NCBI RefSeq assembly: GCF_009192765.1
Contig: NZ_VOHQ01000002.1
Location: 62,001 to 126,000 of the forward strand
DNA length: 64,000 nucleotides
Reading direction: 5' to 3'
Origin: Agriterribacter humi
GTDB lineage: Bacteria; Bacteroidota; Bacteroidia; Chitinophagales; Chitinophagaceae
Made by a program: the position numbers and the translations under genes. Shown in pieces: positions 1,941-19,953 of the stretch. A model generated the notes under the pieces. It had not been told where the DNA came from. It saw only the letters and a program-made list of their open reading frames with translations, and did not search any database. Position 1 is the stretch's first letter. Each line of letters starts with the position of its first letter.

Positions 1941-2024
1941 GCCCGGGTGGCGAAACTGGTAGACGCACTGTCTTCAGGTGGCAGCGTTCGAAAGGATGTG
2001 CTGGTTCGAATCCAGTCCCGGGCA
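1941..2024 (+). tRNA. tRNA-Leu (anticodon CAG)
   Basis: The cloverleaf can be folded by eye. The acceptor GCCCGGG pairs with CCCGGGC, and the anticodon stem CTGTC/GGCAG carries the loop TTCAGGT, giving anticodon CAG. There is a long class-II variable arm (about 1986-2000) and a T-arm with loop TTCGAAT. The discriminator is A, and CCA is not encoded. The last 16 bases form part of the att site of the downstream mobile element. The tRNA is intact, so integration restored it. Confidence 0.95.
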
Positions 2025-2026
2025 CA
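2009..2026 (+). repeat. attL: tRNA-Leu 3' end, copy 1 of 3
   Basis: The 18-bp sequence AATCCAGTCCCGGGCACA covers the 3' T-stem and acceptor strand. It recurs exactly at 20090-20107, and its last 15 bp recur at 19939-19953. An integrase gene begins 200 bp inside. This is the expected arrangement for a tyrosine recombinase that inserts into a tRNA 3' end and regenerates the gene. Confidence 0.9.
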
Positions 2027-2029
2027 CAA

Positions 2030-2054
2030 CCCCATTTTTGATGGGGTTTTTTTT
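2030..2054 (+). terminator. Rho-independent terminator after tRNA-Leu
   Basis: The stem CCCCAT/ATGGGG has a TTTTG loop and is followed by eight T. It lies just inside the left att, so it is probably supplied by the element, not the original chromosome. The other att copies are followed by different sequence. Confidence 0.85.
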
Positions 2055-2133
2055 ATGCCATAAAGCCACTACCAGCAAAGCATTACAGCCAATTTCCTTT
2101 CTTTTCATTTCTTTTATTTTGACGTTATTTTCT

Positions 2134-2168
2134 CAATTTTTGTTACTATGTTGTTACTTGAGTAACAA
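2134..2168 (+). promoter_or_regulatory. Left-end arm-type repeat and 18-bp palindrome
   Basis: Bases 2134-2159 match 19851-19876 at 23 of 26 positions in the same orientation, so both ends of the element carry the motif. Within it TTGTTACT occurs twice (2140-2147 and 2151-2158). The second copy forms a palindrome with AGTAACAA (2161-2168). Position and pairing suggest integrase or excisionase arm sites. The palindrome is also close enough to int (2226) to be an operator. Confidence 0.6.
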
Positions 2169-2225
2169 AATTTCCATTAAAATTCATACCTTAGCGAAAG
2201 AAAAGGAAAAATAAATCATACCAAT

Positions 2226-3296
2226 ATGAGTGTAAAACTTCGCAAAAGAAAGAATGCAAACGGTACCACTTCTTTAATGCTGGATATTTATAACGATGGT
2301 GAAAGAAAGTATGAATTTTTGAAGCACCTGCAATTATCGAACGGAACCACCATTGCAGACAGGGAAGATAATAAGAAGCGTTTGAGACAAGCCGAAGCCA
2401 TAGCCGTTGCCCGTGCTGCTGAACTACAGGCGAATGATTACAGCATGGTATCTGATGCAGGGAAGAAAACAATTATTACAGACTGGATGCAAAGCTATGT
2501 GGACAGGTATAATAAAAAAGATAAAAGAAATATGCAGGGTGCATTAAACCGGTTTGCTGATTTTTTGAAGGAAGATAAAAAAGCCGGGTTAACGTTCGGG
2601 CAGATTACCCCGTTAATCATTGAAGATTTTATTGAAAACCTTGAAAGCAAAAGTAAGGGTGAGGGCGCAAGCTCCTATTATAACCGGTTTAAGAAAATGA
2701 TAAAGCACGCATACCGTAAACGCCTGATGAAAGAAAATGTATTGGACTTGGTAGAAAAGAAGGTTAATGGCAAGGCTGCAAAGAAAGATATTTTAACCCT
2801 GGATGAGTTAAAAGTACTGGCAGCCACACCAACAGAAAGCGGAGAAGTTAGGAGAGCGTTTTTATTTAGTTGTGTTACTGGTTTAAGATGGATTGATATA
2901 AAACCTTTGAAATGGGCAGGTATTAATCTGAAGGCAAAGAGTATGGTTGTAGGGCAAAGCAAGACTGGCGAACCCGTTTATGTACCCCTTAACGATACCG
3001 CTATAAAGCTATTGGGTAGCCCGGGCAGGCCCGAAGATATTGTATTTGCATTGCCTACAGCAAACGGCGCAAATAAGACGGTGAAGGCATGGGTAAAGCG
3101 TGCAAACATTGCAAAAAAAATAACATGGCATAATGCCCGCCATTCGTTCGGAACAAACCTCATATACAATGATGTTGATGTATTAACAGCATCCAAACTA
3201 TTGGGGCATACGAGTATGAAGCATACACAACGGTATGTTAATGCAGCAAGAGAAATGAAATTAAAGGCTACTGATAAAGTAAATATTGAAATGTAA
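2226..3296 (+). CDS. int: Tyrosine recombinase (phage-type integrase)
   Basis: This 356-residue site-specific recombinase has a SAM-like core-binding domain (about residues 85-165) and a C-terminal catalytic domain. Visible catalytic residues are Arg in TGLRW, the HNARH box, His in LLGHTS and the nucleophile Tyr in TQRYVNA. Length and layout match Bacteroidetes integrases. It is the first gene inside attL, reads into the element, and is separated from the next gene by only 6 bp. It is the likely enzyme for insertion at tRNA-Leu. Confidence 0.93.
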   Translation: MSVKLRKRKNANGTTSLMLDIYNDGERKYEFLKHLQLSNGTTIADREDNKKRLRQAEAIAVARAAELQANDYSMVSDAGKKTIITDWMQSYVDRYNKKDKRNMQGALNRFADFLKEDKKAGLTFGQITPLIIEDFIENLESKSKGEGASSYYNRFKKMIKHAYRKRLMKENVLDLVEKKVNGKAAKKDILTLDELKVLAATPTESGEVRRAFLFSCVTGLRWIDIKPLKWAGINLKAKSMVVGQSKTGEPVYVPLNDTAIKLLGSPGRPEDIVFALPTANGANKTVKAWVKRANIAKKITWHNARHSFGTNLIYNDVDVLTASKLLGHTSMKHTQRYVNAAREMKLKATDKVNIEM

Positions 3297-3302
3297 AAAG
3301 AA

Positions 3303-4388
3303 ATGGATAGCTACAAGGAATTTATAAAAGAAGTACATGCCTTAGATGTAAGAACAATTGAACTGCAGGCCCAAAAAATAATAGTAGATGGAGTAACTTA
3401 TACCGAGATACTCCCTTTATGGGAACTTGATCCCACAGAATATAAACCCGCAGACCGGAAGAGATTAAATGAAGAGGGAATCTTTTTTGTTCAATGTTGG
3501 GATCTATCACACTATTACGATGTACCTAATCAGAATATTTGGGAAAGCGGGTACCGTCAAAAGCTGAAGGGAATGCAACAAGCTGCCATTGTGGATGTTC
3601 CCAATAAGCAGCATGCGGAAGTGCTTTTGAATCAAGTTAACCAGTGGCTAATAGGGTTTAAAGCCTTTGACAAATTATGGAGTGTTGAAAAGATGCACAA
3701 CTACTATGGACGAGATTTTTATAAAAGCACTCTTTATTATCAGGACGATTTGAAGATTAAGTTTCTTGCTTATTTCCACACAAAGGGCGTAGCTGAAAAG
3801 AAAGAAGGTTACAGCCCTTCATTTTTGTACATGCTTCACGATATTTATAATGTTAAGATGGCGCTGCTTGAAGGGTTAAAAACCCAACTTACTGCTATCA
3901 CCGGTACCGAATTAAAGCGGGGAAGTACTAAATTTATTTTCGATGATGAAATGGGATGGCTGCAATACAACAATAATAGAGCTACGGAAAATAAAAACAT
4001 TCTCCCAAAGCCATTTGAATTGGTTGATAAAAGAAATGTAGAGCCAATTAAAAGATTGCATAAAGCCTTAAAACATAAAAATTTCATTAATGCCTCACTT
4101 CCGGAATTTAAGGCATTATTTGGATTGAGTGAATTTACAAACCCTATTGTTTGGGTAAGCGCCGAGGCTACAGCTACGGAGTTGTTGTATTTCTATTATA
4201 AGCTGAAAGAAAGTAATAAACTAAAAAAACATATTCATCCTTATGTAACGCTAAAGAATTTTTTCATTAAACAAAATGGAGAACAAATTACAGAAAATTT
4301 AAAGCAAATAAATCAAACGATAAATACCGCCACACCGAAAAGAGCCAAAGAAATAGATACTTGTTTCAATTCTTGGTTTACCTCTTGA
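3303..4388 (+). CDS. Hypothetical protein cotranscribed with integrase
   Basis: This 361-residue soluble protein has no signal peptide or membrane segment, and I do not recognise the family. The first half has many aromatic residues (YYDVPNQNIWESGY; HNYYGRDFYKSTLYYQDD). The last 120 residues are helical and charged, with LLYFYYKLKESNKLKKHIHP. The C-terminal part vaguely recalls RteC-type regulators of Bacteroides conjugative elements, but this is too weak to assign. The ATG lies 6 bp after the integrase stop, implying an operon. Confidence 0.75.
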   Translation: MDSYKEFIKEVHALDVRTIELQAQKIIVDGVTYTEILPLWELDPTEYKPADRKRLNEEGIFFVQCWDLSHYYDVPNQNIWESGYRQKLKGMQQAAIVDVPNKQHAEVLLNQVNQWLIGFKAFDKLWSVEKMHNYYGRDFYKSTLYYQDDLKIKFLAYFHTKGVAEKKEGYSPSFLYMLHDIYNVKMALLEGLKTQLTAITGTELKRGSTKFIFDDEMGWLQYNNNRATENKNILPKPFELVDKRNVEPIKRLHKALKHKNFINASLPEFKALFGLSEFTNPIVWVSAEATATELLYFYYKLKESNKLKKHIHPYVTLKNFFIKQNGEQITENLKQINQTINTATPKRAKEIDTCFNSWFTS

Positions 4389-4457
4389 AAATATTTATAA
4401 AATAAATTCCTCCTTGCTTCCTGCTACAATGCAGTAAATAAGCGTATTCCAGCAGAC

Positions 4458-4497
4458 TTTACCTTTACCCCATACCTTACCTTATCCCAAAGGTAAA
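4458..4497. promoter_or_regulatory. Inverted repeat upstream of HTH gene
   Basis: A perfect 9-bp inverted repeat (TTTACCTTT at 4458-4466, AAAGGTAAA at 4489-4497) flanks a 22-base loop with further TACCTTA-like words. It sits in the 197-bp gap before the HTH gene at 4586. It could be an operator or an RNA hairpin. It lacks the GC stem and T tract of a terminator. Confidence 0.45.
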
Positions 4498-4585
4498 CCC
4501 GTTATTGTTCCTTTTCTTTCCAATTTCACACTGTCAAACACAGATAGCGCTATTTGTTTTTTCAATCATTTTTCAACATAAAAAA

Positions 4586-4810
4586 ATGGATAAGAAGATA
4601 TTAACCTTTCAGGAAGGATGCCAATATATTGGTTACAAGCCGTCCTATGTCTACAAGCTCACAATGTCGGGTATAATTCCTTTCAGTAAACCGAATGGTA
4701 AGAAAATATTCTTTGAACGGGAAAAGCTGGAAGCATGGATGCTAAGTAATGCCACACCCGGAAGCAATGAGCGGGAAAAGCAGGCAGCCACTTATATTTC
4801 TTCACATTAA
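4586..4810 (+). CDS. Excisionase-like helix-turn-helix protein
   Basis: This is a small DNA-binding protein of the MerR-like/HTH_17 excisionase type. The ATG at 4586 (MDKKILTFQEG) gives 74 residues. The longer upstream frame adds a poor hydrophobic leader and is not preferred. The helix-turn-helix and wing are visible in LTFQEGCQYIGYKPSYVYKL and IPFSKPNGKKIFFEREKLEAW. It lies 14 bp before the RepA-like gene. In Bacteroidetes elements such genes often sit beside replication genes and may regulate replication or excision. A paralogue is at 14427. Confidence 0.8.
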   Translation: MDKKILTFQEGCQYIGYKPSYVYKLTMSGIIPFSKPNGKKIFFEREKLEAWMLSNATPGSNEREKQAATYISSH

Positions 4811-4824
4811 AAAACCCCGTAATC

Positions 4825-5907
4825 ATGCAGCAACATAACAACGGGGCAAGTGACTTAAACCAACAGCTCAAAGATACTCCAAATCCCGTATTTGAGGCGG
4901 AATTATTTTCAGGAATTAAAGCGGAAATAGAAACGATTTCCGGAGTTAATAAAGGATTGTTCACAGTTAAACCCGCCAGTGAATGGATAGAACAGGCGAA
5001 AACCCGGCCCATTCCACAAATGCTTTTTGGTGAATTTTGGTTTGAGGGTGAACTATGTATTTTGTTCGCAGATACCAACCTGGGCAAGTCTATTTTAGCC
5101 GTGCAAATTGGTAACAGCATAAGCAGGGGTGAACAGATACGGGGCTTTATATTAGAAGCATTAAAGCAACCAATTTTATACTTTGATTTTGAGCTTTCGG
5201 ATAAACAATTTGAAAACCGATATTCTATAAAGTTTGAACAACATTACAGTTTTGATAACAACTTTATAAGGGTTGAAATAAACCCTGATGCTTCAATACC
5301 CGAAAACCAAACCTTTGAGGATTACCTCAACTATTCATTAGAACGAAGTATTACCGAAACCGGCGCAAAGATTTTAATTATAGATAATCTTACCTACCTA
5401 AAGAATGAAACGGAAAAAGCTAAAGATGCTTTGCCTCTTATGAAGCATTTGAAAGCGTTAAAAAGCAAATATGGCCTTTCAATCCTTGCATTGGCCCACA
5501 CTCCGAAAAGGGATTTATCAAAACCCATTACCCGAAACGATTTACAAGGTAGTAAGATGCTCATAAACTTTTGTGATAGTTCCTTTTCAATTGGTGAAAG
5601 CCATAGCGACAAAAATTTACGATACCTCAAACAGATTAAGCAACGGAACACAGAGCAAATTTACGATGCAGATAATGTTTGTGTTTGCCAAATTGATAAG
5701 CCGTTTAATTTCCTGCAATTTGAGTTTGTCAATTTCGGTAAGGAATGGGAACACCTGAAACAGCATACAGAAAAGGACAAAGAAAGCCTGAACGAAAAGG
5801 TAAATGAACTAAAGCAGCAGGGGCGAAGCCTCCGGGAAATAGGTCAGGAATTGGGTATATCGCACATGAAAGTAAGCAGGATTTTAAAAGACTGTAACAC
5901 CCTGTAA
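4825..5907 (+). CDS. RepA-like replicative ATPase (AAA_25/RecA fold) with C-terminal HTH
   Basis: This 360-residue protein is a RecA-fold ATPase related to plasmid RepA/DnaB-type helicases. A Walker-A-like loop is seen in FADTNLGKSILAVQ (about residues 80-93) and a Walker B in ILIIDNLTYL (about 185). A sensor-like stretch SILALAHTPKRD and a DLQGS motif follow. The C-terminus carries a separate helix-turn-helix (SLREIGQELGISHMKVSRIL). The gene's last codons enter a repeat array (5892-5947), a typical place for a replication origin. It probably drives replication of the excised element. Confidence 0.85.
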   Translation: MQQHNNGASDLNQQLKDTPNPVFEAELFSGIKAEIETISGVNKGLFTVKPASEWIEQAKTRPIPQMLFGEFWFEGELCILFADTNLGKSILAVQIGNSISRGEQIRGFILEALKQPILYFDFELSDKQFENRYSIKFEQHYSFDNNFIRVEINPDASIPENQTFEDYLNYSLERSITETGAKILIIDNLTYLKNETEKAKDALPLMKHLKALKSKYGLSILALAHTPKRDLSKPITRNDLQGSKMLINFCDSSFSIGESHSDKNLRYLKQIKQRNTEQIYDADNVCVCQIDKPFNFLQFEFVNFGKEWEHLKQHTEKDKESLNEKVNELKQQGRSLREIGQELGISHMKVSRILKDCNTL

Positions 5908-5947
5908 CACCTGTAACACCCTGTTACAAGTGTTACACCTGTTACAC
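5892..5947. repeat. Iteron-like array, candidate replication origin
   Basis: Three direct copies of CTGTAACAC (5892-5900, 5902-5910, 5911-5919) are followed by three inverted-orientation copies of TGTTACA/GTTACAC (about 5922-5928, 5930-5938, 5941-5947). The array starts in the last codons of the RepA-like gene and fills the gap before the primase gene. Direct plus inverted iterons next to a RepA-like gene suggest an origin or autoregulatory operator. Confidence 0.65.
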
Positions 5948-5961
5948 TAAACTTCAGAGCA

Positions 5962-7167
5962 ATGAGTAATGAACACAAATACATATTAGAACCATACAAG
6001 GGAATGAGCACCCGCCACCGTTGCCCCGTTTGCAATAAGGACAGGGTATTTAGTCTTTATATTGACACAGAAAAAGGCGAACACATAGCCGGGAATGTAG
6101 GCAGGTGCAACCGTGAAAGCAATTGCGGTTATCATTATACGCCAAAACAATACTTTCAGGATAATAATATTTCTTTTGATACTCCAAAAACTTTCATTAA
6201 AAAGAAAGCTGTTGCCTTGAAGCCGCTACCAGTATCCTATACCCCAAAGGGAACCTTATTGGAAACGCTGAAGGGGTACCATAACAATAGTTTCACGGAA
6301 TTCCTGTATAGCCGGTTTGGGATCAATGCCGCAAATGAGTTAATAGGCAAATATTTCGTGGGCAGCTCAAACCACTGGCGGGGTGCAACGGTATTTTGGC
6401 AGATAGATGTATTAGGGAGGATAAGAGCCGGAAAGATCATGCTGTATAACCCTGGAACGGGCAAAAGAGTTAAGGAACCGTACAATCACATTACATGGGC
6501 GCACAAAGCGCTCAATACACCTGAATACAATCTTTCACAATGTTTATTTGGGGAACACCTATTGAGGAAGGATCCCGGCAAACCCGTTGCAGTGGTTGAG
6601 AGTGAAAAAACCGCAATAATATCATCCCTGTATCTGCCCCAATTCATCTGGCTTGCATGTGGAAGCATTGGTAACCTGAATGCAGAGAGATGCAGGGTAT
6701 TAGCGGGAAGAAAAGTTATTCTTTACCCTGACCTTAACGGGTTTGAGAAATGGAGCGCAAAAGCAAAAGAATTAGCGCACATAACCACAGTAACAGTATC
6801 AACAGTATTGGAAAAGATCGTAACCAATGAAGCCGAAAGAAAAGCGGGTTTAGATATTGCGGATTATTTACTACGGTATAAACCCGAAGCGTTCAAGGAG
6901 CCGAAGGAAGAGCCACTACAGCCGGTAAACATTCTTATCAGTAACATTCTTTCATCTACAGAAACCATAACCGGGCAAGAGTTTAACAACATGCGGATTA
7001 TGTATGTAAAAACCGATGACGGCAAAGCATACGACCTGTTATTTGATAACGGCGGCAACGCCATTGGACAGCATACCCAGGCAGTAGGTAAGCTGGCAGT
7101 ATTCTTTTGCAAGGATTTTAAGCAAGGGACCATTGACGGTGAGCGGGTACTAATAAATGTTAACTGA
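5962..7167 (+). CDS. Primase-like protein with zinc finger and Toprim domain (DUF6371-like)
   Basis: This 401-residue protein probably primes replication with the upstream RepA-like ATPase. The N-terminus has a zinc-binding motif (HRCPVCNKDRVF, then GRCNRESNCGYH). The middle has a Toprim-type core: the acidic strand VAVVESEKTAIISSL (about residue 213), then FIWLACGSIGNLN, then VILYPDLNGFEKW. This matches the Bacteroidetes zinc-ribbon/Toprim family known as DUF6371. Its TGA overlaps the next ATG (TGATG), implying translational coupling to the nuclease gene. Confidence 0.8.
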   Translation: MSNEHKYILEPYKGMSTRHRCPVCNKDRVFSLYIDTEKGEHIAGNVGRCNRESNCGYHYTPKQYFQDNNISFDTPKTFIKKKAVALKPLPVSYTPKGTLLETLKGYHNNSFTEFLYSRFGINAANELIGKYFVGSSNHWRGATVFWQIDVLGRIRAGKIMLYNPGTGKRVKEPYNHITWAHKALNTPEYNLSQCLFGEHLLRKDPGKPVAVVESEKTAIISSLYLPQFIWLACGSIGNLNAERCRVLAGRKVILYPDLNGFEKWSAKAKELAHITTVTVSTVLEKIVTNEAERKAGLDIADYLLRYKPEAFKEPKEEPLQPVNILISNILSSTETITGQEFNNMRIMYVKTDDGKAYDLLFDNGGNAIGQHTQAVGKLAVFFCKDFKQGTIDGERVLINVN

Positions 7168-7676
7168 TGAACTGGAAACAAGAATTAAAAGAATTAAAGT
7201 ATAGCCACATGGAAAGGACAGCGCCGGCATTCTTTGCGGCCAGTGGTGGAAGATCAATGAAATTGAAGCCGTACAAGGATACTACGGCAAACGGATTGAC
7301 CAGATGCATAATTGATTTCATCACATTCTCCGGATGGCAGGCGGAGCGGATTAGTAACACAGGACGGATGATAGACCGCAGGCGCACGTATACGGACGTA
7401 TTGGGACGTAAAAAGCAGATTGGCGGCATGGAGTGGGCAAAGGGAACCGGAACCGCAGGAACGGCAGATTTGAGTGCTACAATAGCCGGACGGTCCGTAA
7501 AGATTGAAGTGAAGACAGGTAGGGACCGGCAGAGCGAAGCGCAAAGCAGTTATCAAAAGAAAATTGAAGCATCCGGGGGCATATATTTCATTGCCACCAA
7601 CATGCGGGACTTTATAAAATGGTATTATTTAAACTTTAAAATTGAAATATATGAACGAGAAACCGTTACCGAATGA
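7167..7676 (+). CDS. VRR-NUC-like nuclease
   Basis: This 169-residue protein looks like a PD-(D/E)XK nuclease of the VRR-NUC type found in phage replication modules. The core reads GTAGTADLSATIAGRSVKIE followed by VKTGRDRQSEAQSSYQKKIE. It therefore has the Asp of GTADLSA, the E-V-K triad strand and the conserved Gln of the following helix. The N-terminal region is basic and aromatic. VRR-NUC proteins cleave branched DNA. It overlaps the primase gene by one base and the next gene by 26 bases. Confidence 0.75.
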   Translation: MNWKQELKELKYSHMERTAPAFFAASGGRSMKLKPYKDTTANGLTRCIIDFITFSGWQAERISNTGRMIDRRRTYTDVLGRKKQIGGMEWAKGTGTAGTADLSATIAGRSVKIEVKTGRDRQSEAQSSYQKKIEASGGIYFIATNMRDFIKWYYLNFKIEIYERETVTE

Positions 7677-8220
7677 TTTGTTTAATGCTGGCTTTTTGCA
7701 CGCTACGCAAAGGACGAGCTATGATTATCCATTATCCCATTCAGCAAAAATAACCGCTGTGGCAAAGTGGATAAGTTGTAATCTAAACAGGGGGGATGCT
7801 ATCAACCCTGAATGGAATAGCTATTCCCTGAAATGTTTGTATCGAGATGCTACCGGGCAAGAATTATCTAATGGAGAATTTATTGCGGCGATGTTAGTTG
7901 CCGGCTTCACATACACCAGATCAGGGATGAATGCCCTTTTTGATGTATCCGGGGAATCGGTGAAACAGATAGAGGAAAAATCTTACATCACTCTAACGGT
8001 TAAGATGGCTAAAGGTGGAACTTTCCTGCCATCGGCAAATAAGTTTAACCAATGGTCCCTGGTATCCAGGCAAAGTATTATTGAACCCTTCGCAAAAGGA
8101 AAGGTAGCCGGCAAACCCTTCACCTATACATACCTGAAGGCTGATAATTTAACAATCCGGTTTATGATGGATGAAAAAGGAAAGGTTTTAGAAGCTGAAG
8201 CATCTACAAACAATATGTAA
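7651..8220 (+). CDS. Hypothetical element protein
   Basis: This 189-residue soluble protein is not recognised. The ATG at 7651 is preferred over a TTG at 7642; either way it overlaps the nuclease gene. The first half (to about residue 100) is mixed, with WNSYSLKCLYRDATGQELSN resembling a small globular domain. The second half has a basic beta-rich stretch (YITLTVKMAKGGTFLPSANK). Its place in the replication operon suggests a DNA-metabolism or phage-related role, but no function can be assigned. Confidence 0.7.
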   Translation: MNEKPLPNDLFNAGFLHATQRTSYDYPLSHSAKITAVAKWISCNLNRGDAINPEWNSYSLKCLYRDATGQELSNGEFIAAMLVAGFTYTRSGMNALFDVSGESVKQIEEKSYITLTVKMAKGGTFLPSANKFNQWSLVSRQSIIEPFAKGKVAGKPFTYTYLKADNLTIRFMMDEKGKVLEAEASTNNM

Positions 8221-13673: not shown

Positions 13674-13706
13674 GTCAACTGTTTTAATGTTTCATAAAGA
13701 TAACCC

Positions 13707-13775
13707 GGTTAACTGAGATAACCAATGATGTTTGGTAAAAAGTTATCCACATTAACCAAGTTATTTCAGTTAACC
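13707..13775. promoter_or_regulatory. Divergent operator array, three copies
   Basis: GGTTAACTGAGATAACC at 13707-13723 recurs inverted at 13760-13775 (GTTATTTCAGTTAACC, one mismatch). A third, more degenerate inverted copy is at 13742-13757 (GTTATCCACATTAACC). The repeats fill the gap between the leftward 13673 and rightward 13810 genes. Three repressor-type sites in a divergent intergenic region resemble a temperate-phage switch. Confidence 0.65.
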
Positions 13776-13809
13776 ACTTTTAATATTATCTTTGTTATAA
13801 ATATTTAAT

Positions 13810-14040
13810 ATGGCTCCGGTAAAAAAATCAGTTACACCAGGACAGACAACCATACCCCAGGTGGGGGTTAAGAGAGTACCTGTTGCAGTATTAGACAAAT
13901 TGCAGGCTATTGCTACGCTTGAAGGTGTACAATACAATGAAATATATAACTTGGCTTTTGTTAAGCTTATTGAAGCCTATGAAGTAAAGAACGGAAAAGT
14001 AAAGGTCCGCCCTAAGGGGAAAGGATTAGAGGGAATTTAA
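13810..14040 (+). CDS. Small putative DNA-binding regulator (RHH-like)
   Basis: This 76-residue protein has a disordered basic N-terminus. It then has VKRVPVAVLDKLQAIATLEG and VQYNEIYNLAFVKLIEAYE, a strand-helix-helix pattern like ribbon-helix-helix repressors. It lies immediately right of the operator array and is the best candidate for its ligand. The assignment rests on pattern only. Confidence 0.6.
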   Translation: MAPVKKSVTPGQTTIPQVGVKRVPVAVLDKLQAIATLEGVQYNEIYNLAFVKLIEAYEVKNGKVKVRPKGKGLEGI

Positions 14041-14161
14041 TTGTTTAAATTAATGCCTCGTGGACAGAGGAACATCAGATGACTTCAAGCCATTAGGGGT
14101 GATGGTTTAAAAAAGCCATGCCGCCTGCCCAGGAAAGATACAATAACGAAAAAAAGCCAAA

Positions 14162-14365
14162 ATGGATAATGCAAAAATATTAAAAGCAGTAAAAACCTCG
14201 ATTGAGAACGAAAACAGGATAGATGATGAAGCAGCAGCTGAACTACTTGGTATAACTAAAAAGACGCTACAAAACAGAATACATCGTATACCGGCGCACC
14301 TGTATACAATAAGCCCGGTAAATGGGAAAAGATTTTGGTATAAAGATAAACTAATGGGTACATAA
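14162..14365 (+). CDS. Small HTH protein
   Basis: This 67-residue protein contains RIDDEAAAELLGITKKTLQN, a helix-turn-helix of the excisionase/MerR-like kind. The wing region is YTISPVNGKRFWYKDKL. It lies between the regulator at 13810 and the excisionase-like gene at 14427. It is probably a DNA-binding accessory protein; its target is unknown. Confidence 0.65.
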   Translation: MDNAKILKAVKTSIENENRIDDEAAAELLGITKKTLQNRIHRIPAHLYTISPVNGKRFWYKDKLMGT

Positions 14366-14426
14366 CCGGTGGCCACATGGACAAACTAAAGGTTGTGAAG
14401 AAAGCAAGAAAATAGTATATTTAAAT

Positions 14427-14681
14427 ATGCTCACACCTGAAAAGGAGAGATTATTAAAAGAGCTTAACAAAAATTTGAGCCTGCAGAAAAAGATACTTAC
14501 GCTACAAGAGGCGGCAGGCCTTCTAAATATATCAAAAAGCTATCTGTATAAAATGGTGCATTGGGGTATAGTGCCATATTCAAAGCCGAACGGTAAGCTG
14601 TTATATTTTGACAGGAAGCAGCTTGAAGAGTGGGCGCTATCAAGCCCCGACATGAAGAAGGGGTGCCGCAATCTACCATAG
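14427..14681 (+). CDS. Excisionase-like HTH protein, paralogue of 4586 gene
   Basis: This 84-residue winged helix-turn-helix protein has ILTLQEAAGLLNISKSYLYK and VPYSKPNGKLLYFDRKQLEE, closely matching ILTFQEGCQYIGYKPSYVYK and IPFSKPNGKKIFFEREKLEA of the gene at 4586. After SSPDM it ends quickly (KKGCRNLP). In the -1 frame an acidic, protein-like reading continues for about 50 codons to about 14806, so a frameshift may have shortened it. Confidence 0.75.
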   Translation: MLTPEKERLLKELNKNLSLQKKILTLQEAAGLLNISKSYLYKMVHWGIVPYSKPNGKLLYFDRKQLEEWALSSPDMKKGCRNLP

Positions 14682-14765
14682 AAATTACGGGAGATGCAAA
14701 TAAAGCCGCAGTACCTCTTTTAGATGTTTCGGCAGAACCAATAAAATTAATAAATCCAACAGACA

Positions 14766-15137
14766 ATGGCAAAAGCAGCAAAGAAAGCCCCAAAGAAGAG
14801 GGCAGATAAATACGAAGAAAAGGAAGCTATCAAAGGCAGCTTCGAAGATGTTATTGGGGTGTCTGTTAAAAACTCAAATAAAAGCACAAAAAATATGTTA
14901 GTAGAATTTACAGATAACATTAGAGGAATCGATTATTCTTTTCAAAGGGTATTTTATGCAGATAAACTTAAGTATCATGTCACATATAACGATGCAGACA
15001 ATACGCCTGTTACATTTAGAATGTCAAGAGAGGACGAGGGATATTTTAAAATTGAAGCACAATCCCTTCCAATTCAAGTATTAGACTCAGAGGGAGAACT
15101 GAGTAATAGAATCTTAGAAAATGAAGAGCAGTTTTAA
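14766..15137 (+). CDS. Hypothetical protein
   Basis: This 123-residue protein has a very basic N-terminal tail (AKAAKKAPKKRADKYEEK) and a beta-rich body (MLVEFTDNIRGIDYSFQRVF; YHVTYNDADNTPVTFRM). Not recognised. It lies downstream of the excisionase-like gene and is probably cotranscribed. The basic tail hints at nucleic-acid binding, but no motif supports it. Confidence 0.6.
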   Translation: MAKAAKKAPKKRADKYEEKEAIKGSFEDVIGVSVKNSNKSTKNMLVEFTDNIRGIDYSFQRVFYADKLKYHVTYNDADNTPVTFRMSREDEGYFKIEAQSLPIQVLDSEGELSNRILENEEQF

Positions 15138-15243
15138 AATAGTTAATAGGTAGCCTTTGAGCAACAGCCGCTCCGGTAGCAATGCCGGGCATTTTTTACG
15201 TTACTTGTCCCAACACGTATATAGTTGTCCGTTAGAATATATT

Positions 15244-15256
15244 GTACTTTTAGTAC
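15244..15256. promoter_or_regulatory. Small palindrome in promoter of 15303 gene
   Basis: GTACT-TTT-AGTAC forms a perfect 5-bp inverted repeat 47 bp before the ATG at 15303, in an AT-rich promoter-like spacer. It may be an operator; evidence is limited to position and symmetry. Confidence 0.35.
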
Positions 15257-15302
15257 TCGGGTCTGTGGCAAATAAAAAGGAGTCATATAAAAAAACGAAC
15301 CT

Positions 15303-15542
15303 ATGATAGAATTTTATCCCCAATGCTTTAAAACTTCAAAATACAAGGTCGAAGTCCGAAGCCAACACCACGGAAATTATCACTTCATAGTGAAGGCTGA
15401 TAATTCAGAAATTTACAGCTTCAACTGGTATGATAGCTCGTATACGGGCGAAAGAATTAAGTCAGCATTTATGCATAGTAATGTTGATCAAATAGAAAAT
15501 GAGGTGCTAACCTATTTCACCGTTTACAAAATTTCAAACTGA
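15303..15542 (+). CDS. Small hypothetical protein
   Basis: This 79-residue protein is beta-rich and aromatic (YKVEVRSQHHGNYHFIVKAD; IYSFNWYDSSYTGERI), with no signal peptide or cysteines beyond one near the start. Not recognised. It has its own upstream spacer of about 165 bp and is probably transcribed separately. Confidence 0.5.
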   Translation: MIEFYPQCFKTSKYKVEVRSQHHGNYHFIVKADNSEIYSFNWYDSSYTGERIKSAFMHSNVDQIENEVLTYFTVYKISN

Positions 15543-15647
15543 AGCACTACCCGTTTTTTATTTTCTGATTACTACATTTGCGAGCTATTGAAGTCATGAT
15601 ACGCAGCGAGTGTTTTTGCTTTGTATATTGAGAAAAAAGCAAGTACA

Positions 15648-16058
15648 ATGAATATTATACCTACTCATGAAGAGCTGCAGGAAGTAAAAAAGTTTAACCG
15701 CCATATTGAATGGCTGAAGCGAAAGGAGCTTAAAGAAGGTTACACCGCCTCGGCGGGCGAAATAATGAAAATTACCGGGTGGACAAAAGACCGGCTAAAA
15801 GGTGAGAGGGAACGCGGCACAATTAGATCAAAGAAGTACGGGACTCAATTTCGATACGATTTAAGCAGCCTTCCGGAAGTGTATAAGCAGAAGATTATCT
15901 ATGCCCCAAATGAGAAAGAACAACAAATAAACTCCCCAATTTCTAATCCACACCATATGGAAGAACAATTTTCATCCGGGAATAAAAAGGGAACACTAAA
16001 CCTTATCAATCCTGAATTCTTTAATATTTATTTTAAAACTGCATCTATCTCGTTTTAA
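15648..16058 (+). CDS. Putative DNA-binding protein, paralogue pair member 1
   Basis: The ATG at 15648 gives 136 residues; a TTG at 15621 is not needed. The core is HIEWLKRKELKEGYTASAGE, then IMKITGWTKDRLKGERERGT and IRSKKYGTQFRYDLSSLPEV, a helix-turn-helix-like arrangement with a small wing. The C-terminal 45 residues look disordered. The next gene has the same core. Confidence 0.6.
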   Translation: MNIIPTHEELQEVKKFNRHIEWLKRKELKEGYTASAGEIMKITGWTKDRLKGERERGTIRSKKYGTQFRYDLSSLPEVYKQKIIYAPNEKEQQINSPISNPHHMEEQFSSGNKKGTLNLINPEFFNIYFKTASISF

Positions 16059-16103
16059 TAATAGCAAACCAAGCACCTCAAATATCTAAATATCTACAAG
16101 GTT

Positions 16104-16379
16104 ATGACCCCGGAGCAAGAAAAAATATTGAAAGATTTCAACAATAACGCGCATTTGTTACGCGACTTCATCCGAAGTGTTGAGTGGTTGAAAAGAAAAG
16201 AGTTGAGCACTTCAACAAAATGGGTACGGGCATCCGTTATATTGGAGAAAACGGGATGGACCCGGGCAGAATTACAAACCGCCCGGCGTAACCGGTATAT
16301 CATGTACAATGAAAAAACGCACCTGTACGACCCGGGCAGTATTAATCAGGATTATCTGGCAGTGACAAAGAAAGGGTAA
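16104..16379 (+). CDS. Putative DNA-binding protein, paralogue pair member 2
   Basis: This 91-residue protein has VEWLKRKELSTSTKWVRASV, then ILEKTGWTRAELQTARRNRY and YNEKTHLYDPGSI, matching the core of the preceding protein. The conserved GWT-(K/R)-x-(R/E)-L segment is likely the recognition helix region. It lacks the longer tail. It is the last rightward gene before leftward cargo genes. Confidence 0.6.
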   Translation: MTPEQEKILKDFNNNAHLLRDFIRSVEWLKRKELSTSTKWVRASVILEKTGWTRAELQTARRNRYIMYNEKTHLYDPGSINQDYLAVTKKG

Positions 16380-16415
16380 TGGTTCCATACTGCTAATGCG
16401 GTCTCGTGAATTCCT

Positions 16416-16916
16416 TTAATGGTCTGATATGACTTGCATATAATAAATCCTCGGGTGTATTTCGGTTGGGGCCCTGAATAAGGATTTGTTTTTACTGATA
16501 TAGTCCATTAGTTTTTTTATTCTTTTAGCGCTCTTCTTGTTCGGTTCTTCTTGATTTGAAAGCCTCATTTGCGCCTCGACTTCAGCAATCTTTGTTTTTG
16601 CCAGAATATTATACCGGTCCCCGTATGCCATCGGGACCCTATCTGTTATTATAATGGAATTGCCGGCATGTAGTTCAAATGATTCCATTTTTACCCGCTG
16701 CCTGGTACTTAGCATGTCATGTAAGTATTTAAGGTTTGCATAGAATGTATCAACATTATTAACCTGTAGCGGAAAGTACCCTGTTCTTATCTGCTCAACT
16801 GTGATACTGTCTGTGTAAACGATAGGCTGTTTAAAACTGCGATGCAGTAGGGCGACCTTTTGCGCCGATGCTGGCAGGAAAAAAGCTATACATATTAAGG
16901 GTAAGATGATTTTCAT
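16416..16916 (-). CDS. Secreted hypothetical protein
   Basis: This 166-residue protein starts with a clear signal peptide (MKIILPLICIAFFLPASAQ) and is probably periplasmic. The mature part is mixed alpha/beta with a basic helical region (NKKSAKRIKKLMDYISKNKS). Not recognised. It is one of several exported proteins encoded leftward in this arm of the element and may be host-modifying cargo. Confidence 0.6.
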   Translation of the reverse strand: MKIILPLICIAFFLPASAQKVALLHRSFKQPIVYTDSITVEQIRTGYFPLQVNNVDTFYANLKYLHDMLSTRQRVKMESFELHAGNSIIITDRVPMAYGDRYNILAKTKIAEVEAQMRLSNQEEPNKKSAKRIKKLMDYISKNKSLFRAPTEIHPRIYYMQVISDH

Positions 16917-17033
16917 TGAAAACAGGCATTAGGGTATAGTAATAAATATAATAAAATCTCCTACAGCGGCCTACTCCAAGTTTACTGATTATCAACAACG
17001 GCCTATAGCTTTTAAAGTGTTTGAATTCCAACC

Positions 17034-17291
17034 TTATCCCGGAATTTTGAATCCCCGTTCTAACAGTAACTCCCTGGCTGCGGCACAGGTTTCATAATCC
17101 TCTTTTTTCAGTGCTTGCAGGTAGAGATTCATTAAAGATAGATCAGTAGGGTTCAGATCTCTCAAGACAGGCACCCGGTCTTTCTCCGGTAGTTCACGTA
17201 ATTTTTCCGACATGAACCGGGAAAGGTAGTTGTACTTTTCTTCCATCCGTCTTTCCTCCGAGGTATTTGATTGAAAGTTTTCGGTATCCAT
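17034..17291 (-). CDS. Small charged helical protein
   Basis: This 85-residue protein is almost fully helical and charged (EERRMEEKYNYLSRFMSEKL; LMNLYLQALKKEDYETCAAA). It lacks signal or membrane segments. Unknown function. It lies divergent from the short lipoprotein-like gene at 17357 with 65 bp between them. Confidence 0.55.
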   Translation of the reverse strand: MDTENFQSNTSEERRMEEKYNYLSRFMSEKLRELPEKDRVPVLRDLNPTDLSLMNLYLQALKKEDYETCAAARELLLERGFKIPG

Positions 17292-17356
17292 TTGCTTAAT
17301 TTTTTATAACTTAGCTTAGTCTAACATTTTTATTTTATCAATAAAAATATTTTTTC

Positions 17357-17575
17357 ATGAGGATACTGATTTTGATATTGGTGCTGGCTTCTGTAGGATG
17401 CGAGGGTCAGAATAAAGTCAAATTCGTTCCCGGAGCTATCATATCATACACATGTAATTTCAATTTCATTAACGATACGGCTACACAATTCAATACTAAT
17501 TTTACTTTTGAAGATTTACAACCTAAGGGTAAACCAGACGATCCCCTAATCCCGTTGCTATCGGCACAGCGTTAA
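17357..17575 (+). CDS. Short putative lipoprotein
   Basis: This 72-residue protein has a signal and lipobox (LILVLASVGCEG), then a short beta-rich segment. The 3' end overlaps the convergent gene at 17523 by 53 bp. It may be a genuine small lipoprotein or the truncated start of a longer one. Confidence 0.4.
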   Translation: MRILILILVLASVGCEGQNKVKFVPGAIISYTCNFNFINDTATQFNTNFTFEDLQPKGKPDDPLIPLLSAQR

Positions 17576-18212
17576 TAAGCGCTTCCATTTTCGCTCTTTT
17601 GCTTTCACTTTGCGAAAGTATTTCTGATAATCCTTTCGGATTTCCTATTTCACACAGAAAGTATCCTTGAACTGCGAATGCCTCAAACTCCGTGTCCTGG
17701 GCTAAGTATTTTTTGTCGTATATACTCCCTCCCCTATAGAGTTTACTCTCTTCTACAAAAGAAGTCTGAAGATAATGCACACATTCGTGAATCAATACAG
17801 ATTTTACTACAGCTTCGTCATATGCACTAAACACTCTTTTCCTACCCAGTACCGAATCAATTAGCGGCCCCACAGTTATTGTTGGATCTCCACACACCCT
17901 GTTGGCATCTATACTTCCGGATTTTTGATTGGAAGTCCCGAAAAAGGTTGCCTTTTTTCTTTCAAAACTACTATCAAGCTTGAAAACAAGCTTTGCGTCT
18001 TTCTTGAAATACTTCCTCATTGGAATATCAAGCGCATGCATTATTTGGATAGCTTTTGTAATGTACTCATCAGGGCTGTACGGTAAGGCTCCATCTTGAT
18101 AGGATAGGTCATATATATATGTAATCGAATCCATTGAAGATACTGCAGCTTTTTGGTCACCCTCTGAACAAGCGACTAAAAACAAAAGTAATACAACTGC
18201 AATCTTTCTCAT
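17523..18212 (-). CDS. Lipoprotein with HExxH metalloprotease-like motif
   Basis: This 229-residue protein begins with a lipoprotein signal (VVLLLFLVACSEG) and contains LIHECVHYLQT, an HExxH zinc motif. Downstream is DTEFEAFAVQGYF, where an acidic residue could be the third ligand. This resembles small surface metallopeptidases. Catalysis is inferred only from the motif. It is cargo of the element with no obvious link to replication or packaging. Confidence 0.7.
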   Translation of the reverse strand: MRKIAVVLLLFLVACSEGDQKAAVSSMDSITYIYDLSYQDGALPYSPDEYITKAIQIMHALDIPMRKYFKKDAKLVFKLDSSFERKKATFFGTSNQKSGSIDANRVCGDPTITVGPLIDSVLGRKRVFSAYDEAVVKSVLIHECVHYLQTSFVEESKLYRGGSIYDKKYLAQDTEFEAFAVQGYFLCEIGNPKGLSEILSQSESKRAKMEALINAVPIATGLGDRLVYP

Positions 18213-18603
18213 TTTTGTGCAAGATTTTTAAAGGTTTTAGGGGTCTCTGGTAGGATGTTGATTATCTAAAGTATATAATTTTATTTTAAAATATGAAAGT
18301 TTATACATAAATCAAATAAAAAAAGCCCGGAGTAAAAACCCCGGGCGGTTGCTAACCTATGAAAAACACCGTTACTAATTTAGTGTCTTATTTTTACAAT
18401 TACAATGCCTTTATACAAATTCACCATCACGCTGCTATCAGGTAAGGTGCAGCCATAGGTGATTATGGGCAATTACATATGGGTCATGTTACCGAAATGA
18501 GCTTTATTAAATAATTTGAAAGTAACAAGGAAAGAAAATGCTAAGCAATGGGCGGGCTAATGAAAAGTGATTGATCCGTAAGGATGTTGAGGCGCTGGGA
18601 TAA
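18213..18603. other. 391-bp gene-free spacer
   Basis: Apart from the leftward terminator at 18321-18346 I see no convincing gene here. The only frames are very short. It contains the promoter region of the HExxH lipoprotein gene. Confidence 0.5.
18321..18346 (-). terminator. Leftward terminator
   Basis: The stem GCCCGG/CCGGGC (18325-18330 and 18341-18346) has a 10-base loop. Read on the minus strand it runs into a T tract (18318-18324). It likely ends the transcript of the 18925/18604 gene pair. Confidence 0.75.
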
Positions 18604-18921
18604 TTACTCATATTTTGAACTACTATCTTTTGGGACGACATAGTCTCCCTCCTTCCAGTTTCTTTCCTCATGTAGCCACTCCAAAAGTGCTCCCATAAAT
18701 GAAAATCTTATAGCCAATCCTGTTGCTTGTTCAAAGCACACTTGTCCAGGGGTTAGTTCCCTAATATATATTGACCTTTTGTAAATTGCTTGATTACCCT
18801 GTATTACATAGGTGGTTGTGCTGCCAATTTTTACAATTCCGCCTGGCGCCAAGCGCCCGCTATTTATTAATTGCTTTTCAATAAAATCTAAATCCACTGA
18901 CGGATGGTAATTCTCTGGCAT
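18604..18921 (-). CDS. Hypothetical protein, second gene of pair
   Basis: This 105-residue protein has no signal or membrane segment. Its start (MPENYHPSVDLDFIEKQLIN) and body (IVKIGSTTTYVIQGNQAIYK) are beta-rich. Its ATG lies 3 bp after the stop of the 18925 gene, so the two are cotranscribed and probably act together. No family recognised. Confidence 0.6.
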   Translation of the reverse strand: MPENYHPSVDLDFIEKQLINSGRLAPGGIVKIGSTTTYVIQGNQAIYKRSIYIRELTPGQVCFEQATGLAIRFSFMGALLEWLHEERNWKEGDYVVPKDSSSKYE

Positions 18922-18924
18922 TTA

Positions 18925-19323
18925 CTACGCTAATTGGGGGTCAAGGTTTACTTCTATATTCGGATTCGCGTAGTTGCTTCCGGTCTGAATAAGTCTTTCA
19001 AGGAAAGCATCAGTGTCTGAAATATTGTAACCAAGAATTGGCTCGCCGCTTTTTCCGTCAACGTTGATCCAACCTAATGACTGTAGTTCTTTAACTATCC
19101 CTTGCCCAAATTTATCAGCAACAACGCAAAATGCGGCTATTGCCTCCTCAATTGCTTTATCTGTATCCTCTTCGTTCTTTGCAACTGTTTCGATTCCAAG
19201 CATAGGTAAAGAAATCCCAATACTACAATGATCGGTTTGCTTAGTCCAGATCGGCATTGACACCGATACGGACATTAGTTTTCCGCCTTTTTGGAATAAT
19301 CGGATATTTGCTTCCGCATGCAT
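18925..19323 (-). CDS. Hypothetical protein, first gene of pair (weak HicB-like resemblance)
   Basis: The ATG at 19323 gives 132 residues; an upstream start would add 43 residues of unlikely sequence. GISLPMLGIETVAKNEEDTD followed by KAIEEAIAAFCVVADKFGQG recalls the strand-then-helix layout of HicB-like proteins, but the match is weak. It could belong to a toxin-antitoxin or immunity-type pair with the next gene. That idea rests on size and tight spacing only. Confidence 0.55.
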   Translation of the reverse strand: MHAEANIRLFQKGGKLMSVSVSMPIWTKQTDHCSIGISLPMLGIETVAKNEEDTDKAIEEAIAAFCVVADKFGQGIVKELQSLGWINVDGKSGEPILGYNISDTDAFLERLIQTGSNYANPNIEVNLDPQLA

Positions 19324-19586
19324 ATTCTGTGTTTTTAGAAAATTGTTATAGGACTTTAACGTTTTTAAGCGAATTCTGTTGTATGAGCATTGGTACTCGT
19401 CATGGTATCTACATGCAATATATGTACTAATTATATACAAAAAACCACTCAATGTTACCGGCGGTTTTTAACGATATGCAAAACATTGATTATCAGGTAA
19501 TTATTTTTAACCTTTTTTAAAATCACAAAAACGATCTTGTTAAAAAATGCAAATTTGTCAAAACAAATAAATTCCCAACCGTTATA

Positions 19587-19683
19587 GGAGGTCCCGAGCG
19601 GATTTGAACCGGTGTTATCCGGATTGGATCCGAACCAATGACCTGAACACAATGAACCAGGGTTCGACTCCCTGCAGCTCCAC
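19587..19683. pseudogene. tRNA/tmRNA 3'-half-like fragments
   Basis: On the plus strand a perfect T-arm (CAGGG TTCGACT CCCTG, 19658-19674) is followed by acceptor strand CAGCTCC and A (19675-19682). This resembles the 3' end of tmRNA or an Ala-type tRNA, but no matching 5' half precedes it. On the minus strand a second T-loop-like TTCAAAT segment runs into CGGGACC (19591-19597), and a third T-arm-like word lies at 19623-19638. These look like scars of tRNA-targeted integrations, not functional tRNAs. Confidence 0.5.
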
Positions 19684-19703
19684 AAACTACCTGCATGCGA
19701 GAT

Positions 19704-19828
19704 AAGGGTACGATTTCAAAACCGACCCTTCGCCATGATGGTAAGCAGCGGCTATTGCCTGGGTGTTAAAACTTCACACCCGTTCGTATTAAGTACGAAC
19801 CCCGGTTTTTATTGACCGGGGGTTTTTA
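19704..19828 (+). ncRNA. Candidate structured RNA with terminator
   Basis: Four hairpins follow each other: AAGGGT/ACCCTT (19704-19730), GGGTGT/ACACCC (19761-19781), GTTCGTA/TACGAAC (19782-19800) and CCCCGGT/ACCGGGG (19800-19821) with a T-rich tail. The last is a good terminator, yet no protein gene precedes it. A small RNA of the element is the simplest reading. Family unknown. Confidence 0.45.
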
Positions 19829-19850
19829 TGGGCAAAAGCGAGTGTTATTA

Positions 19851-19876
19851 CAATTTTTGTTACCCTGCTGTTACTT
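19851..19876 (+). promoter_or_regulatory. Right-end arm-type repeat
   Basis: This 26-base stretch matches 2134-2159 at 23 of 26 positions in the same orientation and lies 62 bp inside the att copy at 19939. The pair supports 19939-19953 as the element's right boundary and suggests integrase/excisionase binding. Confidence 0.6.
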
Positions 19877-19938
19877 CATACCTAACAATATAATAAGAAT
19901 ATATTGATAATTAATTAGTTACAATCATAGGTATTGAA

Positions 19939-19953
19939 CCAGTCCCGGGCACA
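19939..19953 (+). repeat. attR, tRNA-Leu 3'-end copy 2 of 3
   Basis: CCAGTCCCGGGCACA equals the last part of tRNA-Leu plus two bases. It is preceded by the right arm-type repeat and followed at once by a strong hairpin terminator. It is the most likely right junction of the element. Confidence 0.8.

Follow-up and report, generated by a model that had tools for sequence, protein, structure and literature searches.

The window, by which we mean the whole 64,000-nucleotide stretch of DNA that was analysed, carries an integrated element of about 18 kb (2027–19953) next to a tRNA-Leu gene. Its ends and flanks are made up as follows.

1941–2025, + strand: tRNA-Leu(cag), the target gene (ARAGORN), with the attL core at 2012–2026
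2028–2050, + strand: terminator-like hairpin with which the left end of the element provides the tRNA (fold prediction)
2134–2159, + strand: left arm-type repeat (repeat match, shuffle control, congener G300 by eye)
19851–19876, + strand: right arm-type repeat (same evidence)
19939–19953, + strand: attR core, the element's own right end (core matches in the genome; same right end on contig C6 of G300)
19954–20107, no strand, 154 bp: putative leftover of a second insertion, opening with a terminator-like hairpin and closing with the core 20093–20107 (site in congener G296)

The core of the tRNA-Leu 3′ end, CCAGTCCCGGGCACA, has exactly three matches in the 5,687,865-base genome, all within the window (in the tRNA, at 19939–19953 and at 20093–20107), and the reversed control pattern has none. 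In G296 the tRNA-Leu is unoccupied and the DNA downstream of it aligns to the window from 20090 onward, so that the inserted DNA ends at 20107 and host sequence resumes at about 20108; the G296 contig starts at the tRNA, and the unoccupied site is thus visible on the right side only. The element itself ends at the first distal core, since a sister element in G300 matches 19706–19952 at 92% and likewise ends with that core. An earlier note on this DNA had reported the tRNA 3′ end to be repeated at the far end, which is correct for 19939–19953, but had overlooked the additional distal core at 20093–20107. The 154 bp that follow 19953, with a predicted terminator-like hairpin at their start, look like what is left of a second insertion in tandem. 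In the G300 sister, the end core is followed by a terminator that by eye resembles the one 3′ of the G296 tRNA-Leu, and the flank beyond that terminator has no match to the window flank.

The matching arm-type repeats proposed inside both ends are borne out: they are identical at 23 of 26 bases, a value that none of 1000 dinucleotide shuffles of both end regions reached (maximum 21). By eye, two related elements in G300 carry similar repeats at either end, and the left ends of both have hairpins like that at 2028–2050.

Genes of the element

The interior contains the following genes.

2226–3296, + strand: tyrosine integrase (PF00589, 4.6e-24; SAM_5; Arm-DNA-bind_5)
3303–4388, + strand: ORF2, 361 aa, no assigned function (comparison with G300)
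4505–4810, + strand: HTH_17/excisionase-like regulator (PF12728, 6.8e-10; phrog_25262, 3e-19; phrog_66, 8e-8)
4825–5907, + strand: AAA_25/DnaB-like replication ATPase (PF13481, 1.1e-17; phrog_19, 1e-13)
5962–7167, + strand: primase-like protein with Zn_ribbon_16 and DUF6371 (PF19898, 2.8e-65; PF21957, 9e-28)
7167–7676, + strand: nuclease-like protein (phrog_93 endonuclease, 1.3e-5; phrog_5702, 2.8e-4)
7642–8220, + strand: ORF7, 192 aa, no assigned function (phrog_9576, 3e-7; 83% identical in G300)
8243–8536, + strand: DUF5681 protein, candidate small terminase (PF18932, 1.5e-7, above cut-off)
8533–8763, 8720–9019 and 8964–9221, + strand: three overlapping small paralogous ORFs (mutual alignment)
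9367–11325, + strand: homologue of tail tape-measure proteins, 652 aa, the only structural gene recognised (PHROGs; relatives in tail clusters)
11380–13497, − strand: variable cargo of 226 aa (membrane-protein-like by eye), 178 aa, 66 aa and 161–176 aa (ORFs)
13810–16379, + strand: small ORFs, including HTH_17 (14427–14681) and weakly excisionase-like ones (15621–16058, 16104–16379) (Pfam/PHROGs)
16416–19452, − strand: cargo, with secreted- or lipoprotein-like ORFs at 16416 and 17523 by eye

The integrase follows attL directly, as the earlier note had it, and its description of an interior with replication and regulatory genes plus one tail gene likewise holds, given the ATPase, the primase, the HTH_17 regulator and the tape-measure homologue. 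In viral contigs, a scan that reaches close relatives only returned one relative of the integrase, 25% identical, and none of ORF7; among 288 genomes of the family, ORF7 was found in its own genome only. The primase-like protein matches 25 loci in genome contigs. The nuclease-like protein, labelled VRR in this analysis, gave no Pfam VRR match; its homologues precede DUF5681 at two other loci (L144 and L159). In the cargo, neither 11380–13497 nor 16416–19452 gave a Pfam match above cut-off, and PADLOC returned no match for ten proteins, the three longer ORFs of 11380–13497 among them.

The sister element (G300, contig C6, 7663–24466) occupies the same tRNA. At the amino acid level the two share the integrase at 94% (77% for the integrase of another G300 element), the first HTH protein at 100%, the nuclease at 89%, ORF7 at 83%, DUF5681 at 90% and the three small ORFs, all of them kept, at 80–89%; ORF2 is 100% identical, with no difference across its 361 codons. 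For gene pairs with a defined non-zero value, dN/dS between G300 and the window is 0.05–0.25, and the shared non-structural backbone is under purifying selection. The replication genes, on the other hand, have been swapped, and the tape measure is replaced by a different tail gene. The same order from the regulator to the tail slot recurs at a third locus (L144), which belongs to a different genus of the family, with HTH, ATPase, primase, nuclease, DUF5681, one relative of the small ORFs and an 892-aa homologue (1.8e-33) of the sister's 694-aa virion protein; no large terminase, capsid or portal was recognised there by similarity to a reference set.

A candidate small terminase and a recurring tail slot

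The DUF5681 gene had been missed in the earlier note. Its relatives in viral contigs are 24–33% identical and agree best in one basic N-terminal motif. At 6 of the 8 viral loci they lie immediately 5′ of the large terminase, which makes the protein a candidate small terminase; the same position is seen in MW202462 and at two further loci (L156, L157). Two relatives in Bacteroides phages are near an integrase and not near a terminase. The copy in a 6-kb G300 mini-element is 79% identical to ours, yet gives no PF18932 match, and the AlphaFold model (pLDDT 61, pTM 0.32) is of low confidence and too poor to use. PICIs carry a small terminase without the large one, and to judge from gene position in phages, the DUF5681 protein may represent the same arrangement here.

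The tail gene follows in a slot that recurs behind DUF5681 at three loci. In our element it is occupied by the tape-measure homologue (phrog_30292, 4.4e-34; phrog_25337, tail tape measure, 5.6e-7), of which no close relative was found. The G300 sister likewise has a single recognised tail gene, that for the 694-aa virion protein (phrog_33803, 1e-24; phrog_23570, 1.4e-9), and it lies in the same slot together with a remnant that is 79% identical to the C-terminal 34 residues of our tape measure. Homologues of the two proteins adjoin each other at three loci (L076, L077, L080) and are 1.4–2.3 kb apart in phages phi10:1 and 11b. Since the sister has lost most of its tape measure and no tail gene was recognised in the mini-element, the tail gene must be either dispensable or turning over.

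Scans of viral contigs, which reach close relatives only, gave no relative of either tail protein. No helper was found: among 12 genomes of the genus the 694-aa protein matched its own gene only, and our tape measure matched nothing else in its own genome. Against the PDB, the 694-aa family profile had no match; the tape-measure profile had four, at E 0.0038 or weaker, which look helical or coiled-coil and lend no support for a tail fold. No tail assembly chaperone was recognised in the Pfam and PHROGs scans, in which the three small ORFs 5′ of the tape-measure gene received no assignment.

A probable phage satellite of Bacteroidota

Among the 28 ORFs inside the element that were scanned with Pfam and PHROGs, none was recognised as a relaxase, capsid, portal or large terminase gene, in agreement with the earlier note; the other listed ORFs, mostly short or overlapping these, lay outside the scan. 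The 28 ORFs thus combine integration and replication genes with less than a full virion set, which is the general mark of a satellite. A specific att site, with the integrase at one end and regulator and replication genes next to it, is the arrangement of PICIs, and a tape measure encoded by the element itself (PHROGs; relatives in tail clusters) is a PLE-like trait. The capsid, portal and large terminase that would indicate a prophage, and the relaxase that would indicate an integrative mobilizable element, were not found in the scanned ORFs.

We thus read the locus, with a probability of about 60%, as an integrated PICI/PLE-like phage satellite of Bacteroidota, which would be packaged in helper parts and form chimeric tails, the latter by analogy with PLE11 of Vibrio cholerae. 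First of all, the integrase would recombine the tRNA-Leu 3′ core and the arm sites for insertion and excision, as the anatomy and the unoccupied site suggest. Second, to judge from their families, the HTH/excisionase-like block may control excision, and the AAA ATPase and the primase may replicate the circle. Third, DUF5681 would act as the satellite's small terminase, steering the large terminase and capsids of the helper to satellite DNA, a role suggested by gene position in phages. Finally, the tape-measure homologue would replace that of the helper, giving chimeric tails of a length set by the satellite, and in sister satellites this slot would hold another part of the tail.

Alternative explanations

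Of the other explanations, the one that survives best is an integrative element that lacks a relaxase and remains unpackaged, and that uses its tape measure or neighbouring tail protein as a decoy against infecting phages, poisoning their tail assembly as tail assembly inhibition (Tai) systems do. The tail gene differs between the sisters in the manner of defence cargo, and related integrase/DUF5681 elements at three loci (L057, L068, L158) have, by eye, restriction-modification-like cargo. Tail assembly is a known defence target, although Tai proteins are not described as tape-measure homologues in the available text (PMC11364771). The DUF5681 gene without a large terminase points to packaging instead, and we consider a decoy unlikely.

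The earlier note had left open whether the locus is a satellite or a heavily reduced prophage. The latter would have kept its integration and replication genes and a single tail gene by chance. The tape measure and the 694-aa protein are indeed neighbours in phages, and the sister's tape-measure remnant is a sign of ongoing loss. However, the satellite is better supported by the dN/dS of the backbone shared with the sister, by the single but different tail gene in the sister's slot, by DUF5681 without a large terminase and by the gene order at L144. Chance retention also fits poorly with the purifying selection on that backbone, with the same slot at three loci and with the two tail genes, which stand in the reverse of phage order when the sisters are superimposed. 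Furthermore, a set of 60 query proteins, all but two taken from four prophage stretches, had no match at E up to 1e-4 among the 381 ORFs of at least 80 aa at the primase's 25 loci. The relatives found, which are few, do not lie inside complete prophages, the setting in which a prophage origin had been expected to show. A reduced prophage is accordingly quite improbable.

An integrative mobilizable element, transferred by conjugation with a relaxase acting in trans, is the least probable: such elements are common in Bacteroidota and one locus with the same primase (L063) has by eye a relaxase-like ORF right after it, but no relaxase is among the 28 scanned ORFs, a start-motif filter, which can miss relaxases, pointed by eye to a relaxase-like N-terminus in just one of the 25 relatives, and conjugation has no known use for a tail gene or a terminase-like gene.

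Relation to known satellites

The satellite reading places the element beside several known systems. Tycheposons and other tRNA-integrated hitchers have, as here, a tRNA-targeted tyrosine recombinase, replication genes and variable cargo; tycheposons belong to a different phylum. The PICI likeness is one of described gene layout, namely an integrase at one end, a transcription regulator, replication and packaging gene(s), accessory cargo and small size (PMC11364771, available text), whereas the Bacteroidota host and the tail gene set our element apart. According to PMC12987554 (2026), PLEs are the first satellites known to build chimeric tails, with a precedent there for a satellite-encoded tape measure, tail chaperone and baseplate hub; the same paper reports predicted tmp genes for PLE-like elements from other Vibrio as well as for a sampling of the cf-PICIs. 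The PLEs of V. cholerae (PLE11, PLE1, PLE4) resemble our element as integrated elements that encode a tape measure of their own. A baseplate hub protein is encoded by PLE11 as well, whereas here the sister has, in place of the tape measure, the virion gene that neighbours it in phages. Packaging and chimeric tails are demonstrated for PLEs, the tails in PLE11 (PMC12987554); here both are inferred, and no tail chaperone was recognised. The cf-PICIs share a predicted tape-measure gene but are capsid-forming (PMC12987554), and here no capsid, portal or large terminase was found. Among the papers listed by literature searches, no title or abstract opening describes a Bacteroidota phage satellite, and the available text of a study of packaged DNA in gut Bacteroides (Nat Commun 2026, PMC12946183) mentions PICIs for other bacteria only.

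More tentatively, there may be a class of Bacteroidota satellites with an integrase, HTH regulator, ATPase, primase and DUF5681 core, some with an exchangeable slot behind DUF5681 for a single tail part. Such satellites would form chimeric tails together with a helper phage, an ability evolved separately from that of the Vibrio PLEs. Within such a class, one satellite would supply the tape measure, and with it tail length, and its sisters the neighbouring tail protein. If true, a Bacteroidota element with a swappable tail slot would suggest that tail reprogramming is a general satellite strategy, and DUF5681 behind a primase without a large terminase would be a gene signature for finding satellites in this phylum.

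Non-coding stretches near the right end

Two non-coding stretches lie towards the right end.

18181–18427, no strand: conserved non-coding stretch (90% on contig C6 of G300; 78%, for 18219–18445, on contig C67)
19587–19686, no strand: composite of tRNA/tmRNA 3′ ends (tRNA-Cys antisense, tRNA-Arg(tct) antisense, tmRNA sense)

The composite had been overlooked in the earlier note. A tmRNA gene was considered for this stretch (Rfam E 6.8e-6, under the gathering score) and dismissed: the one tmRNA match of the genome that passes the cut-off is on contig C1, and the stretch consists of three separate tRNA/tmRNA 3′ ends. Among 294 genomes of the family the pattern occurs only in G000, twice, and a shorter form is present in G300, a genome from outside that sample.

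Attachment sites and borders

The tRNA-Leu(cag) at 1941-2025 is the sole tRNA that ARAGORN finds in the window. A search of the 5,687,865-base genome for the tRNA's 3' core, CCAGTCCCGGGCACA, gives three matches, every one inside the window (2012-2026, 19939-19953 and 20093-20107), and none for the reversed control pattern. The first two copies bear out the earlier note, which had the tRNA 3' end repeated at the far end. Its matching arm-type repeats at both ends also stand: the 26-base repeats at 2134-2159 and 19851-19876 are identical at 23 positions, a score reached by none of 1000 dinucleotide shuffles of both end regions (maximum 21). In the congener G296, whose contig starts at an unoccupied tRNA-Leu and thus displays the site on its right side only, the DNA directly 3' of the tRNA aligns with the window from 20090 on, so host DNA resumes at about 20108. 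This alignment includes the following feature, which is therefore assigned to the host side.

20179-20725: YefM/YoeB toxin-antitoxin pair (Pfam families), just outside the element and also adjoining the unoccupied G296 site

A sister element in the congener G300 (contig C6, 7663-24466) is 92% identical to 19706-19952 and has the same core at its end; beyond it lies, by eye, a terminator like that 3' of tRNA-Leu in G296, past which the G300 flank does not match the window's. Since host DNA resumes at about 20108 and the sister ends with the same core, the element proper is about 2027-19953. The previously proposed right end, 19953, is thus shared by the sister, but a further core lies beyond it and host DNA begins only at about 20108. 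The intervening 154 bases (19954-20107), with a terminator-like hairpin at their start, as at the element's left end, and the core at their end, match only the window's own locus among the loci compared; we infer that they are the leftover of a second tandem insertion.

Just inside the right end lies a composite of about 100 bp, in which T-arm and acceptor parts of three different genes follow in a row.

19587-19686: 3' ends of tRNA-Cys(gca) (antisense), tRNA-Arg(tct) (antisense) and tmRNA (sense)

The genome has a second copy (86%), 2.4 kb away from tRNA-Phe (G000:C29:256400-256495; L078, 9900-9995). Near the equivalent tRNA-Phe of G300, a shorter version is made up of the Cys and tmRNA parts (G300:C67:6999-7073; L104). 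A search of a 294-genome family sample found no copy in the other genomes. The composite could have been left by att sites that fell out of use when integrases were exchanged, or it could be a decoy landing-site cluster for other elements.

Gene content and the DUF5681 protein

Scanning 28 ORFs inside the element against Pfam and PHROGs identified an integrase, HTH_17 regulators, an AAA_25 ATPase, a nuclease-like protein, a primase-like protein (Zn-ribbon and DUF6371), a DUF5681 protein, a tape-measure homologue and weakly excisionase-like proteins. No relaxase, capsid, portal or large terminase was found among them, in agreement with the earlier reading, and PADLOC gave no match for ten element proteins. 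Three paralogous small ORFs, retained in the sister element, may have a tail-chaperone or capsid-modifying role.

8533-9221: three small paralogues, overlapping in successive frames, between the DUF5681 and tail genes

A profile built from three DUF5681 proteins detected eight loci in viral contigs. A large terminase directly follows in six (L114-L119), with Pfam scores above cut-off in five and below it in L119; by eye, a terminase-like ORF lies at a distance of 3.7 kb in L112, and the contig stretch of L113 stops before any terminase could appear. These viral relatives are 24-33% identical to the element's protein and agree best in a basic N-terminal motif. Four deposited phage records matched; MW202462 has the gene beside a 'phage terminase', and in two Bacteroides phages it lies near an integrase (three of the four records examined). 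Gene position thus makes the DUF5681 protein a candidate small terminase. Its predicted structure is of low confidence (pLDDT 61). PMC8954984 reports a DUF5681 protein in the virion proteome of a Salmonella phage.

Across the order, DUF5681 matches occur in 17 of 396 genomes, including our own. At 11 of the 16 other loci the extracted stretch contains an integrase, recognised by Pfam in L148 and L151 and by phmmer in the other nine; in L144 and L154 it is about 8 kb away from DUF5681. In a similarity comparison with eight terminases and the ORFs of two prophage stretches, only L156 (phmmer 3.4e-18, Pfam terminase scores just under cut-off) and L157 show a large terminase, in both as the gene next after DUF5681. 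The contig stops short of DUF5681 in L146 and L147, and L148, L152 and L159 have no more than about 1.2 kb of contig behind it.

Sister elements and the tail genes

Integrases of this kind (E up to 1e-40) occur in only two of 12 genus genomes, our own and G300, which has two. The G300:C6 sister occupies the same tRNA-Leu, with identities of 94% for the integrase, 100% for ORF2 and HTH1, 89% for the nuclease, 83% for ORF7, 90% for DUF5681 and 80-89% for the three small ORFs. A 2,937-bp alignment from the tRNA contains 77 differences, 73 of them at 2600-3199 in the integrase and a single one beyond 3140, which points to a very recent exchange between species, the ORF2-HTH1 block having probably passed between elements. 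Across 3141-4877, 1.7 kb, the two species differ at one position. In 12 comparisons, dN/dS was 0.05-0.25 for pairs with a defined non-zero value; it was undefined or zero for ORF2 (no differences) and a 76-aa protein (no amino-acid changes), and DUF5681 against the mini-element copy described below was saturated.

The single tail gene claimed earlier is confirmed: its 652-aa product hits phrog_30292 (4.4e-34) as well as phrog_25337, a tape-measure family (5.6e-7). Relatives occur in three of 294 family and seven of 396 order genomes, own genome counted in both and without a second match there; by eye, all four in L076, L077, L079 and L080 sit in apparent phage structural clusters. In the sister, a BT4734/PriCT_2 primase and a different ATPase, with AAA_25 scoring below cut-off, take the place of the replication pair, and the tail slot holds a 694-aa protein matching phrog_33803 (1e-24) and the virion structural protein phrog_23570 (1.4e-9), with no Pfam match. 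A remnant 3' of this gene corresponds to the last 34 residues of the element's tape measure (79%). Homologues of the 694-aa protein directly follow the tape measure in L076, L077 and L080, and the matches to the two proteins are separated by 1.4 and 2.3 kb in the phages phi10:1 and 11b. Superimposing the sisters puts the 694-aa gene ahead of the tape measure, opposite to the phage order, an arrangement that simple shrinking of one tail cluster would not produce. A 6-kb mini-element in G300 (contig C76) carries an integrase (77%), a regulator and a DUF5681 homologue without a PF18932 match in Pfam, and no recognised tail gene. This, together with the sister's broken tape measure, shows that some members can do without a tail part.

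A proposed satellite with chimeric tail use

In line with one of the two options in the earlier note, the anatomy is that of a satellite: site-specific integration, replication genes of its own, variable cargo, and a candidate small terminase unaccompanied by a large one. We give a satellite with chimeric tail use a probability of about 0.6, with most of the doubt on the chimeric-tail half. According to PMC12987554, V. cholerae PLE11 encodes a tape measure, tail chaperone and baseplate hub, its virions contain its own tape measure and hub, and about 99.9% of transduction is lost without that tape measure; in Extended Data Fig. 10 of that paper, the legend names PLE-like elements and cf-PICIs with predicted tmp genes. 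The same logic would hold here with one tail part per element. The main alternative is that the tail gene interferes with infecting phages; the Tai systems described in PMC11364771 show tail assembly to be a target of defence. No helper phage was found, the 694-aa protein matching only its own gene in the 12 genus genomes, and viral contigs hold no close relatives of the tape measure, ORF7 or 694-aa protein. Among the papers that literature searches on satellites listed, titles and abstract openings contained no description of a Bacteroidota satellite.

Related loci in other genera

In L144, from a different genus of the family, genes for an HTH protein, ATPase, primase, nuclease and DUF5681 come first in that order, then a relative of the third small ORF, and next an 892-aa homologue (1.8e-33) of the 694-aa tail protein; beyond this lies a tail-fibre-like S74 protein. 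Neither ORF2 nor ORF7 has a match at this locus. L144 and L161 (G227:C1, 1706001-1746000) cover a satellite-like locus with a 694-aa-type tail gene. By eye, a separate element nearby has an integrase, a primase-like ORF and, about 17 kb away, a relaxase-like ORF beside that other integrase.

The primase matched at 25 loci in genome contigs, all titled as Bacteroidota or as genera belonging to it except L049 (titled Bacillota). Their 381 ORFs of at least 80 aa gave no match at E up to 1e-4 to a query set of 60 proteins (two tail proteins, and 58 taken from four prophage stretches), the best of any kind being 0.0018; L063 has, by eye, a relaxase-like start. In L047 and L055, which come from other Bacteroidota, identity to the element's ATPase (4825-5907) is 92% and 91%, but the adjoining primase reaches only 62% and 57%, so the replication genes seem to be exchanged independently of each other. 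The primase is followed by DUF5681-like matches in L057, L068 and, weakly, L051 and L053. By eye, L057 (Fibrisoma) and L068 (Spirosoma) are integrase-primase-DUF5681 elements with large restriction-modification-like cargo.
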